Origin: Candidatus Parcubacteria bacterium
GTDB lineage: Bacteria > Patescibacteriota > Microgenomatia > Levybacterales > GWA1-39-11
Assembly: GCA_003599595.1 (NCBI GenBank)
Contig: QZIP01000027.1
Location: forward strand, 1 to 35,696
Reading direction: 5' to 3'
DNA: 35,696 nt
The translations under genes and the position numbers were made by a program. Below, in pieces: positions 20,241-24,759 of the stretch. Positions within the stretch are counted from its first letter, which is position 1, and every line of letters starts with the position of its first letter. The notes under the pieces are model-generated. The model was not told where the DNA came from and searched no databases. It worked only from the letters and a program-made list of their open reading frames with translations.

Positions 20241-22502
20241 CTAATGTTTTTTCTCAATTTTGTATATGTTGTTGCGGGTTGTATCTATTGCATCAGGCGA
20301 TACAGAAACACTGGTAATTCCCCAATCTACAAGTTTTTCTACTAGTTCAGGGTATGTGGAAGGGGCCTGTCCGCAAATAGAAGAGGATATATTGTGCTTC
20401 TTACATGCTCTAATAACTTTCTCAAGCGCCCACATTACCGCTTCGTTTCTTTCATCAAATTCCTCTGCAACCGTTTGGTTATCTCTGTCAATTCCAAGGA
20501 TAAGCATGGTTAAGTCATTTGAACCAATTGAGACTCCGTCAATCCCCGCCTCAATAAAGTCATCTATAAGTATTACATTTGATGGAATTTCTACCATCAT
20601 GAAAAGCTTGAAATGGGTGCTTCTTTTTAAATCCGCTGCAGATATTAGCTTTTTTACTTTTTCTAGTTCTTTAACTGTTCTTACAAATGGAATCATGAGG
20701 TTAAGATTGTTTAGGCCCATTTTGTTCCGTATTATTTTAATAGTCTCAAGTTCCAACTCAAATACCCTTGAGTCATTAATATATCTATATGCTCCCCTAA
20801 ATCCAAGCATTGGGTTTGGTTCAATTGGTTCGTAGTGAATTCCTCCTTTGAGATTCCTATATTCATTTGTTTTAAAGTCTGTTGCCCTGTAAAGAACGGG
20901 TCTTGGATAAAAGGCTTTACAAATTGTACTAATTCCTTCTGTAAGCTTTTCTATAAAAATTTTTTCTTTTTTTTCTGCAATAAGCATTCTTGGATGTGTT
21001 CCTATTTCTGCGATCATAAATTCTGCTCTTAAAAGTCCTACACCGTCAACATTTTGTGCAGCTATTTTTTGTGCCAATTCAGGTTCTGCTAGGTTTACGT
21101 AAACTTTGGTTTGGGTTTTTATCATAATTTGGGGATGTACTTTGGAGTTAATTTCCTGTGTCAACACACTTCCTTTATAAATTTCCCCTGTTTTACCGTT
21201 TACACTAATTACATCTCCATCTTTAACTGTCTTTATTGCGTTTGGCACCCCTACAACGGCGGGAATTCCAAATTCCCTAGAAACAATTGCCGCGTGAGAT
21301 GTTCTTCCACCCCTTTCTGTTACTATGGCCGCTGCCTTTTTCATTGCAGGAACGTAGTCGGGGTTAGTGTATGGTGCAACAAGAATATCTCCTTGAAGGA
21401 CCTTATGTATATCTTTGGGACTTGTCAGGATTTTTACAGGTCCAACTCCTATTCCGGGACTTGCAGGATCTCCTATAAGAATTGGATGGCCTAATTTTGA
21501 CGATTGATCTTTTTCTTCTGCTTTTGATTTTATTTGTCCTATTGTTGTTATTGGTCTTGTCTGAACAATGTACATCTTTCCTTTTTCTTTTGCCCACTCA
21601 ATGTCTTGTGGAAAATAATAATGCTTTTCAATTTCTTGACCTATTTTGGCAAGCTCTATAATGCTATTATTTTGAAGTCTTTGTTTCTTTTTCCATCTTC
21701 CTGGAACTTTTACCTCTCTATTTTCTCTTCCTATTTTTTTCAGCATTACATCTTGAATTGCGATTCTAGAATTTGTTATATGATGAGTTTTTTTATCCAC
21801 TTCATAATGATCTGGGTTGACTTTACCTTGAACAATATACTCTCCCAACCCGTAAATTGCTTCAATAATTACTTTTGACTTGTCATTGGTAACAGGATCT
21901 ATGGTAAACATAACTCCTGAAGTTTCTGACTCAATCATCTTTTGAACTACTAAAGCAATTCCTGCTTTAAGAACGTCCATTTTGCTCTCATGTCTATAAA
22001 ATACAGCTCTTGTTTCAAATAATGACGCCCAGGCCTCTCTTATTTTCTCTATAACAGCAGATTCCCCTTTAACGTTTAAGTAGGTTTCTTGCTGTCCGGC
22101 AAATGATGCATCTTTGGAGTCTTCTGCAGTAGCGGAGGATCTAATTGCAACTAGGGGTTCCTTGAAAAAACTTCCCATTTTTTTGTAGTAATCAAAAATA
22201 GGTTTTACAATTTCTTTTGGAACAGGAGAAGTCAGAATAAGCTTTTTAATGGCAATAGATGCTTTCTCAATAGATTTTGAATCATCATAGTTTACCGATC
22301 CCATTAGGTGCTTCATTTTTATGTCCAACTTATTGTCTTCAATGAATTTATAGTAAGCGTTAGATGTAACAACAAAACCTGGAGGAACGGGGAATTTTGC
22401 TTTTATCATCTCACCAAGGTTAGCACCTTTTCCTCCCACGTGAAGAGTATCTTCTTTGTCAACCTCTGATAGCCACACAACATAGTCAGTAGACTTTACC
22501 AT
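20241..22502 (-). CDS. ppsA: Phosphoenolpyruvate synthase
   Basis: GGKGANLGEMIKAKFPVPPGFVVT, RSSATAEDSKDASFAGQQETYLNV, TERGGRTSHAAIVSREFGIPAVVG, C-terminal SICGQAPSTYPE. Confidence 0.97.
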   Translation of the reverse strand: MVKSTDYVVWLSEVDKEDTLHVGGKGANLGEMIKAKFPVPPGFVVTSNAYYKFIEDNKLDIKMKHLMGSVNYDDSKSIEKASIAIKKLILTSPVPKEIVKPIFDYYKKMGSFFKEPLVAIRSSATAEDSKDASFAGQQETYLNVKGESAVIEKIREAWASLFETRAVFYRHESKMDVLKAGIALVVQKMIESETSGVMFTIDPVTNDKSKVIIEAIYGLGEYIVQGKVNPDHYEVDKKTHHITNSRIAIQDVMLKKIGRENREVKVPGRWKKKQRLQNNSIIELAKIGQEIEKHYYFPQDIEWAKEKGKMYIVQTRPITTIGQIKSKAEEKDQSSKLGHPILIGDPASPGIGVGPVKILTSPKDIHKVLQGDILVAPYTNPDYVPAMKKAAAIVTERGGRTSHAAIVSREFGIPAVVGVPNAIKTVKDGDVISVNGKTGEIYKGSVLTQEINSKVHPQIMIKTQTKVYVNLAEPELAQKIAAQNVDGVGLLRAEFMIAEIGTHPRMLIAEKKEKIFIEKLTEGISTICKAFYPRPVLYRATDFKTNEYRNLKGGIHYEPIEPNPMLGFRGAYRYINDSRVFELELETIKIIRNKMGLNNLNLMIPFVRTVKELEKVKKLISAADLKRSTHFKLFMMVEIPSNVILIDDFIEAGIDGVSIGSNDLTMLILGIDRDNQTVAEEFDERNEAVMWALEKVIRACKKHNISSSICGQAPSTYPELVEKLVDWGITSVSVSPDAIDTTRNNIYKIEKKH

Positions 22503-22596: not shown

Positions 22597-22642
22597 ATCG
22601 AGGTCTCACCTCGATTCCTTCTTGACGAGGTGAGACCTCGAT
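22597..22642. repeat. REPIN-like palindrome pair upstream of RAYT
   Basis: ATCGAGGTCTCACCTCGAT (22597-22615) plus inverted copy CGAGGTGAGACCTCGAT (22626-22642); outer arms ATCGAGGTCTCACCTCG/CGAGGTGAGACCTCGAT are a perfect 17-bp inverted repeat with 12-nt loop. Confidence 0.88.
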
Positions 22643-22658
22643 ATGATATAGTTTATTT

Positions 22659-23309
22659 ATGCCAGCAAAAAACACTATAAAGATTTATATTCCGAATGGT
22701 TACTATCATATTTATAATCGTGGAGTTGAAAAAAGAGTAATATTTCAAGATGATGCTGATTATAAAATGTTTTTATATTATATGTTTATCTATCTTGCTC
22801 CACCATCTGTAATTCAATCTAGGTATGAAAAGTTAAAAAGCGCTCTTAAACTTGGTAATTTTTACTCTAAAGTTGATTTACTTTGTTATACACTTATGCC
22901 AAACCATTTTCATTTTTTAGTTCATCAGAATAGTGAAAAGCATATAACTGAATTAATGAGGAGGATTACTAATGCCTATACTACTTATTTTAATAAAAGA
23001 TACGATCGAGTTGGACCATTATTTCAAGGTGTATATAAAGCATCACTTATAGATAGAGACGAATATCTTCTTTATTTGACTAGATATATTCACAGAAATT
23101 CATTAGATGTTATTGATTATAAAAATAAGATCGAAAATTATCCTTGGAGTTCTTATAGAGCTTATCTTGGATTTGAAAAATCATCATATATTAATACAAG
23201 CTTTGTTTTGAATTTCTTTTCTCAAAAAAACGAATTTTTATCTTATAAATCTTTTGTTGAATTTGAACAACAATATCAGTTACCACAAAATATCCTTTTT
23301 GATGAATAG
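22659..23309 (+). CDS. REP-associated tyrosine transposase (Y1/HUH, IS200-like, RAYT)
   Basis: YYHIYNRGVEKRVIFQDDADY, CYTLMPNHFHFLVHQ (HUH), NAYTTYFNKRYDRVGPLFQGVYKASLIDRDEYLLYLTRYIHRNSL, YPWSSYRAYLG. Confidence 0.93.
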   Translation: MPAKNTIKIYIPNGYYHIYNRGVEKRVIFQDDADYKMFLYYMFIYLAPPSVIQSRYEKLKSALKLGNFYSKVDLLCYTLMPNHFHFLVHQNSEKHITELMRRITNAYTTYFNKRYDRVGPLFQGVYKASLIDRDEYLLYLTRYIHRNSLDVIDYKNKIENYPWSSYRAYLGFEKSSYINTSFVLNFFSQKNEFLSYKSFVEFEQQYQLPQNILFDE

Positions 23310-23315
23310 CTGCTT

Positions 23316-23361
23316 ATCGAGGTCTGACCTATCCTTGAGCCTATCGAGGTGAGACCTCGAT
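23316..23361. repeat. REPIN-like palindrome pair downstream of RAYT (first arm degenerate)
   Basis: ATCGAGGTCTGACCT (23316-23330, decayed) and perfect ATCGAGGTGAGACCTCGAT (23343-23361), reverse complement of the upstream copy at 22597-22615. Confidence 0.85.
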
Positions 23362-23378: not shown

Positions 23379-24305
23379 CTAAATCTTTTTAGTTCCTGGA
23401 ACTATGAGGTCGAAGGGTTTATTTGACCCATATGCTTTTGGACCATAATCATTTACGTAAGTTGATATATTTTCTTTGAAGTATTGTGGTTTAGCATTTT
23501 GAATTTTGCCTACAATATAGTATGTAATTGCCATAACTCTTGCAAAATTAATATTATCTGGAAGGGCAATATCCCACCTATGCTCTATATCACCAAAGTA
23601 TTCATTTTTTTCACCAAGAGATATCACCAATTCATCTTTTGACCTAATAACAAATTTAGCGTGTCTTGCATGTCCTTGACTAAATGCTCTTATTGATAAA
23701 TTAGGACCAAACAATTCGCTTTTTTTAATGTCAAGCATTGGACAAATGTTCATATATTTATTAGGTAAAACAAATGAATAACTATTGTAATTATCAAAAT
23801 TTTCAGGAAACTTAAAAGAACTAATGTAATTTTTTATATCTTCTGGATTTTCTTTAGTTGCCGACAATATCATACCCATGTAAGTGGAAACGTTATAAGT
23901 ATATGGTTCATCAATGGAATCAAAAACGTAAACCTTGTCGGCAATCTTTGCAGCATCTGATTCTCCTTTTGTAGTTAAAAGTGTTGTGTGAAGCGAGTAT
24001 TTTTTTGCAAGTTCTATTTCCCAGACGGAATCTTTACCACCAGATGCAGATACAATAACTGCTTGATTTATTAATCCACTATTTATTGCTTTCTCAAAAG
24101 CAGATATAAGTTTTTTGAAATTACTTTCATCTGCAAATATCGCAGCTTTCTCGGAGAATAAAATAAGTCCAGTATTGTACGCGTTTCCAGATCCAACAAC
24201 AAAAGGAAGATTGAAATCATCAATATTTAATAATGGGGGTGGGTTTTTAGAAAAAAAATCTAAGGTTAACAAAACATCTTGATCCAAACTTATAATATTG
24301 TCCAT
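23379..24305 (-). CDS. SIS-like (phosphosugar isomerase family) protein, divergent; ORF call extends to 24389 but internal Met preferred
   Basis: LPFVVGSGNAYNTGLILF, VIVSASGGKDSVWEIELAKKYSLHTTLLTTKGESDAAKIADKVYVFDS pattern resembles SIS fold. Internal start MDNIISLDQD avoids a 71-nt overlap with the cupin ORF. Confidence 0.5.
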   Translation of the reverse strand: MDNIISLDQDVLLTLDFFSKNPPPLLNIDDFNLPFVVGSGNAYNTGLILFSEKAAIFADESNFKKLISAFEKAINSGLINQAVIVSASGGKDSVWEIELAKKYSLHTTLLTTKGESDAAKIADKVYVFDSIDEPYTYNVSTYMGMILSATKENPEDIKNYISSFKFPENFDNYNSYSFVLPNKYMNICPMLDIKKSELFGPNLSIRAFSQGHARHAKFVIRSKDELVISLGEKNEYFGDIEHRWDIALPDNINFARVMAITYYIVGKIQNAKPQYFKENISTYVNDYGPKAYGSNKPFDLIVPGTKKI

Positions 24306-24318
24306 TTGTTTGATTTTA

Positions 24319-24759
24319 TTATATCTTTTTGCCTCTTTCAATCTTTCTTTGCTTAGGAGTTTCGTCCGGCCTTTTATAATCATCTTCAAGTCTTAGTGTT
24401 GTACCCATTTCAGGAGTTGATACCTCAATAATATCGCAATCTGTAATTCCAGCCAGTCTATGTCTTTGTCCAATCTGGCAACTATACCCTTTTTCTTTTT
24501 CAAGTTCTGTTTCCGTAAGATTTCCTTGATCATCATCCCAAATAACCTTGCCTCTACCGTTTACAAGAAACCATGTTTCTTCTTTTTGGTCATGTATTTG
24601 AAGACTTAATCTTTTACCCGCATCTATATGCAATAGTTTTCCCATATAGGGCTTATCTTCTGAAACCCAGTGTAATTCATAACCCCATGGTTTATCTATT
24701 TTCTTTACGTAGGAATGGTTAATAAACTTTGATTTGTCAATTTTGTTTAGGTATATCAT
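24319..24759 (-). CDS. Cupin, mannose-6-phosphate isomerase type II-like
   Basis: DKPWGYELHWVSEDKPYMGKLLHIDAGKRLSLQIHDQKEETWFLVNGRGKVIWDD...GQRHRLAGITDCDIIEVSTPE. Confidence 0.8.
   Translation of the reverse strand: MIYLNKIDKSKFINHSYVKKIDKPWGYELHWVSEDKPYMGKLLHIDAGKRLSLQIHDQKEETWFLVNGRGKVIWDDDQGNLTETELEKEKGYSCQIGQRHRLAGITDCDIIEVSTPEMGTTLRLEDDYKRPDETPKQRKIERGKKI

Follow-up and report, generated by a model that had tools for sequence, protein, structure and literature searches.

Does a small Y1/HUH transposase gene that is bracketed on both sides by inverted palindromes constitute a mobile element in its own right, or does it belong with those systems in which a stationary gene is accompanied by a dispersed family of its own hairpins? 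This question is raised by a locus in the genome of a Candidatus Parcubacteria bacterium, where such a cassette occupies positions 22,597 to 23,361 of a contig analysed here over a stretch of 35,696 nucleotides, referred to as the window. The original prediction described the locus as an unusual RAYT and REPIN cassette that could be autonomous.

Anatomy of the cassette and its protein

The cassette comprises a single Y1/HUH gene between two REPIN-like units, each composed of a pair of inverted palindromes. The coordinates first proposed for this arrangement, including those of the upstream hairpin and of the partly decayed downstream pair, are reproduced almost to the base. The features are as follows:

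20241-22502, minus strand: ppsA, neighbour of the Y1 gene
22597-22642, no strand assigned: upstream REPIN-like unit, 46 bp, two inverted hairpins within a 17-bp inverted repeat
22597-22615, plus strand: palindrome copy 1, ATCGAGGT-CTC-ACCTCGAT, 8-bp stem and 3-nt loop
22624-22642, minus strand: palindrome copy 2, GACGAGGT-GAG-ACCTCGAT, loop orientation inverted, 6-bp perfect stem
22659-23309, plus strand: Y1/HUH transposase gene (TnpA-Y1, RAYT/TIRYT type), 216 aa, recognised by PF01797, invariant residues and AF2 fold
23316-23361, no strand assigned: downstream REPIN-like unit, 46 bp
23316-23334, plus strand: palindrome copy 3, decayed, ATCGAGGTCTGACCTATCC
23343-23361, minus strand: palindrome copy 4, perfect, ATCGAGGT-GAG-ACCTCGAT
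23379-24389, minus strand: sugar-isomerase-like gene, the other neighbour, without a Pfam match and named from a reading of its sequence

Both units contain two inverted 19-nt hairpins set 27 nt apart, with loops in the order CTC then GAG in the upstream unit and CTG then GAG in the downstream unit. In the upstream unit, a perfect 17-bp inverted repeat is made up of arms at 22597-22613 and 22626-22642, which are separated by 12 nt; it ends 16 nt before the ATG of the Y1 gene. The downstream unit begins at 23316, with 6 nt between it and the stop codon. As single-stranded DNA of the plus strand, the two units fold with z-scores of -8.1 and -5.4, and none of 200 shuffled sequences does as well. 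Elsewhere in the window, a palindrome of a different style (CACCTGGGAGGTG then TGCACCTAGGG) is situated at 2414-2460 beside a putative tRNA gene, and its core occurs twice on contig C26 of the same genome.

The encoded protein matches the Pfam family Y1_Tnp (PF01797) at 37.1 bits, above the cut-off of 23 (E = 3.9e-9). It carries an HUH motif (H83-F84-H85), a catalytic-type Tyr143 within the sequence YIHRN, and the motifs LFQG and YPWSSY; H83, H85 and Y143 are invariant across 61 homologues. The Y1/HUH (IS200-like) superfamily is marked by an HUH motif together with one catalytic Tyr within a Y1 fold, and the protein has both. Although a single-protein search of PDB sequences gave no match, profile and fold searches did. 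The best PDB fold match of the AlphaFold2 model (pLDDT 90) is the E. coli RAYT bound to a REP hairpin (4ER8, E = 1.1e-6), and matches to IS200/IS605 transposases rank behind it (TMt about 0.5-0.6). The Pfam match and the modelled fold support a place on the RAYT side of the family. The protein scores 38.4 bits against the NCBI equivalog model for REP-associated tyrosine transposases (NF047646), below its cut-off of 80.

Comparison of motifs with Table 1 of Quentin et al. (2018, PMC6006769) suggests a protein of the subclass 2.1 kind (Bertels group 1, or TIRYT) and not a classic gammaproteobacterial RAYT. Subclass 2.1 is characterised there by the HuH motif NH[YF]H, the W-motif FQ and the Y-motif Y[IV]HLNP. 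The homologue consensus (PNHFHF, LFQG and RYIHLNP) agrees with all three, and the window protein has YIHRNS in place of the last.

Dispersed hairpins and cognate pairs

Within the window, and with up to one mismatch allowed, no further copy of the palindrome is present bar one chance-like site at 24414, as had been reported. This absence does not extend to the genome, in which pattern searches locate four further complete 46-bp units (C3:23075, C9:35325, C35:5095 and C35:7091), none of the four adjoining a Y1 gene. Dispersed copies therefore exist, and the objection that the palindrome might have no other copies falls away. The exact core CGAGGT[CG][AT][CG]ACCTCG has eight matches in this genome, none in the reversed control and none across 13 related genomes, and so the family looks private to the genome that carries it. 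With a draft assembly of 52 contigs and 85% completeness, the total of six units is a lower bound.

Dispersal as inverted pairs between genes is present, with one of the four dispersed units overlapping the end of an ORF. The units are of fixed length with a variable spacer, and the aligned copies give a consensus of approximately ATCGAGGTCTCACCTCGAY-N8-RTCGAGGTGAGACCTCGAT with inverted loops. Compensated changes among the six units affect three base pairs within single 19-nt hairpins and one across the long hairpin, which, in this small set, favours the single hairpin over the long one as the conserved entity. The two units on contig C35 (locus L011, 5095-5140 and 7091-7136) flank a Pif1-like helicase gene, and the second lies within the ORF end of that gene and provides its final codons.

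Palindromes of the other style are likewise dispersed in this genome, with 33 matches against 8 in the control. The palindrome CACCTTCCAGGTG occurs about eight times, on contigs C2, C5, C20, C23, C35 and C43, yet it is not a flank of any of the six Y1 genes identified in the genome; it is either an orphan family or one whose cognate gene lies in the missing part of the assembly. The five other Y1 genes are 35-41% identical to that of the window, and each of the six has a different palindrome of its own.

The same arrangement recurs well beyond this genome. Matching palindromes bracket 91 of 103 homologue loci, nearly all from named or sampled Patescibacteria and a few of them the same place seen twice, as compared to 1 of 95 controls; two 150-nt flanks were required to match at p <= 0.01 against dinucleotide shuffles, and the controls were taken 600 nt further out. 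That a CPR genome holds a RAYT-side protein and REPIN-like palindromes cognate to it is upheld, but not the description as an unusual one-off, since bracketing is the rule among the homologues found. Homologues are present in 142 of 381 genomes sampled across the phylum, some of which hold several gene-palindrome pairs in about 1 Mb. Since most of the relatives examined show this arrangement, with a hairpin proper to each gene, the RAYT/REPIN lifestyle is common in Patescibacteria.

Among 11 genomes selected for the presence of such Y1 loci, 10 have 2-17 copies each of GCAAGGN5CCTTGC (control 0-1), and GACAAGGN5CCTTGTC has 25, 26 and 9 copies in three single-contig genomes of the same genus (control 0). 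When palindrome styles, called automatically and roughly, are placed on a protein tree that includes five plasmid relatives and the E. coli RayT, 8 changes are required, as compared to a shuffled mean of 31.6 (0 of 500 as low). The pairing of gene and palindrome is cognate, and palindrome style tracks the protein tree. Plasmids hold 20 distant relatives, some of which were taken as outgroups, and those of R. rubrum and Iodobacter are associated with GGGGTCAG-type repeats; a search of phages gave one distant match only.

The hairpins lack the GT[AG]G tetranucleotide at their foot, and no flank is conserved among the six window-family units. Similarly, nothing is conserved beyond the 21-nt palindrome TGACAAGGACGGACCTTGTCA in 35 copies of the GACAAGG (g12) family. 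In S. maltophilia, binding largely tolerates mutation of the GTAG motif, whereas cleavage is reduced by it (PMC8266576, PMC3116915). By analogy with this tolerance, a system that reads the hairpin alone, without GT[AG]G, is plausible.

Stationary genes, scattered hairpins and their interpretation

Three single-contig genomes of one genus (G045, G148 and G023; completeness 100, 100 and 99%) have an orthologous Y1 locus in common, with hairpins at the same places. In these Y1 genes (L169, L170 and L166, respectively) a palindrome lies in frame directly after the Tyr motif, where it encodes LTRTD(L/I)VT or VTRTDLVT; the downstream hairpin in G148 is related yet different in sequence. The GACAAGG copies of these genomes, those of the Y1 locus included, lie mostly at unshared sites where comparable, the comparison covering a block of 78-80 kb with many copies lacking usable anchors. 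The Y1 gene and most of its hairpins are conserved across the three genomes, whereas the scattered hairpins are mostly species-specific, a pattern that can also come from loss. One clean empty site is provided by the hairpin at G045:70951, between a stop and the next ATG, for which G148 has a short, hairpin-free junction. Between 11 and 71 kb of contig 1 of G045, nine exact GACAAGG palindromes share one loop orientation; orientations are mixed elsewhere.

The window family itself offers a comparable case. The map-infA spacer that holds one of its REPINs measures 618 bp (L010, 4249-4866), and the same spacer in four genomes of the same taxonomic family (G002, G003, G004 and G006) measures about 55-110 nt and is without any window-family unit. 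At least four palindromes of other families lie beside the unit in this long spacer, which appears like an insertion hot spot.

Since the Y1 gene is single-copy, its cognate hairpins are stationary and the scattered hairpins turn over, a REPtron is the expected kind of system, and we interpret the window cassette, with considerable confidence, as a REPtron-like element of Patescibacteria. As in REPtrons, the gene is flanked by its own palindrome family and is present as one copy per gene type, with low identity between paralogues. The lack of a GT[AG]G foot and the low copy number count against this interpretation, the window family having six units; many Proteobacteria harbour more than 100 REPs. 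The single-copy Y1 protein probably mobilises its cognate hairpins and is probably not part of a self-copying IS. The HUH residues and fold, the structure of the hairpins, their cognate pairing with the gene, their dispersal and the empty sites in relatives are observed; from the known chemistry of the family we infer cleavage, and movement of the hairpins by this protein through a single-strand route. The Y1 HUH endonuclease would recognise its hairpin in single-stranded DNA, for instance during replication, and would cut beside it through Tyr143, and the hairpin unit would occasionally be copied or moved to other intergenic sites. The Y1 gene would remain single-copy and be inherited mostly vertically, with the paired hairpins around it acting as reference copies and the scattered 46-bp units as non-autonomous offspring. 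A broader proposal, for and against which the balance is roughly even, is that of a phylum-wide Y1 branch that mobilises bare palindromes without a GT[AG]G guide, in which gene and palindrome co-diversify, in two styles (AGG..CCT and ACC..GGT) and with several pairs per reduced genome.

Alternatively, the palindromes could serve in regulation or transcription termination, with a Y1 protein domesticated for ssDNA processing or autoregulation and no mobility at present, which we consider unlikely. Two of the window's hairpins are terminator-like by score, and the hairpins of orthologous Y1 loci are conserved. Moreover, of 44 C-style loci, 28 have TTGAC within 100 nt upstream (in 19 together with a -10-like box), as against 3 on the mirrored downstream strand; a promoter may thus overlap with some of the upstream palindromes. 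However, no sigma-70 promoter above chance is found in the window unit, and a regulatory role leaves unexplained the scattered cognate copies, their species-specific occupancy, the empty sites and the matching palindromes downstream of the gene.

It is quite improbable that gene and terminal hairpins travel jointly as an autonomous, IS200/IS605-like unit. Matching palindromes do stand at both ends, and most of the Y1 loci compared in genus g4 sit at different sites. The cassette is also missing from the junction between ppsA and the isomerase-like gene in G001, of the same taxonomic family; the order of these two genes is kept there, but what separates them is a small unrelated gene and not a Y1 gene. 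The suspicion of a locus fixed in all relatives is thereby removed. Against joint travel, the Y1 gene is single-copy, without the multiple near-identical copies per genome typical of IS200/IS605, several Y1 loci are orthologous in same-genus comparisons, and no tnpB-like gene is found among the genes adjacent to that of the window. Recent copying of whole cassettes is unlikely because the paralogues are so divergent and each has a different palindrome; the autonomy first suggested is not supported. One orthologous cassette in two same-genus genomes (L160, 4384-5194; L163, 4266-5077) is 82% identical, and the longest neighbouring aligned block is 72% identical.

Chance hairpins or an assembly artefact, to which an incomplete and fragmented draft might lend some colour, have a negligible likelihood, this reading being refuted by controls near zero and by the same anatomy in many independent assemblies, single-contig ones included.

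To our knowledge, work on RAYT/REPIN biology has been confined almost entirely to Proteobacteria and a few further phyla, and our search of open-licence papers found none joining it with CPR. With their natural series of cognate pairs, the Patescibacteria allow one to ask by what means a Y1 protein recognises a hairpin that has no guide tetranucleotide, and why reduced genomes retain such elements.

Comparison with known systems

With the TnpA of IS200/IS605, the window protein is expected to share the Y1 HUH chemistry and the recognition of hairpins; it differs in its weaker fold match, in the lack of near-identical multiple copies and in palindromes that are dispersed alone. The RAYT/TnpA-REP systems of E. 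coli, Stenotrophomonas and Pseudomonas resemble it in the HUH fold, the single-copy gene and a cognate palindrome family dispersed between genes as inverted pairs (PMC3116915, PMC8266576). The REP of S. maltophilia even has an 8-bp stem and 3-nt loop, as does the window hairpin (PMC3116915, PMC8266576). Unlike these systems, the window family is without GT[AG]G, its protein falls below the NF047646 cut-off, and palindromes number tens of copies at most in the genomes searched. The subclass 2.1 motifs of the protein and the repeats without a GT[AG]G foot set the window element apart from textbook RAYTs.

The TIRtrons and their TIRYT proteins (Di Nocera et al. 2013, PMC3733652), which are largely subclass 2.1 TnpA-Y1 (Quentin et al. 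2018, PMC6006769) and equivalent to Bertels group 1, share with the Patescibacteria loci the motifs NH[YF]H, FQ and Y[IV]H-N(P), as well as dispersed flanking repeats of a non-GTAG type. Their repeats are unrelated to GTAG REPs, are in some cases self-complementary, and occur as moderately abundant dispersed copies and dimers (PMC3733652); thus, the idea of a Y1 gene with non-GTAG repeats is not new. Hairpin-flanked Y1 genes of Patescibacteria do not feature in the TIRtron and subclass 2.1 accounts (PMC3733652, PMC6006769), and REP-like flanking sequences were not found for subclass 2.1 by Quentin et al. (PMC6006769). In contrast to the terminal inverted repeats of TIRtrons, the flanks in Patescibacteria are compact hairpins. 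Most homologues have them on either side; they are specific to each gene and frequently form REPIN-like pairs.
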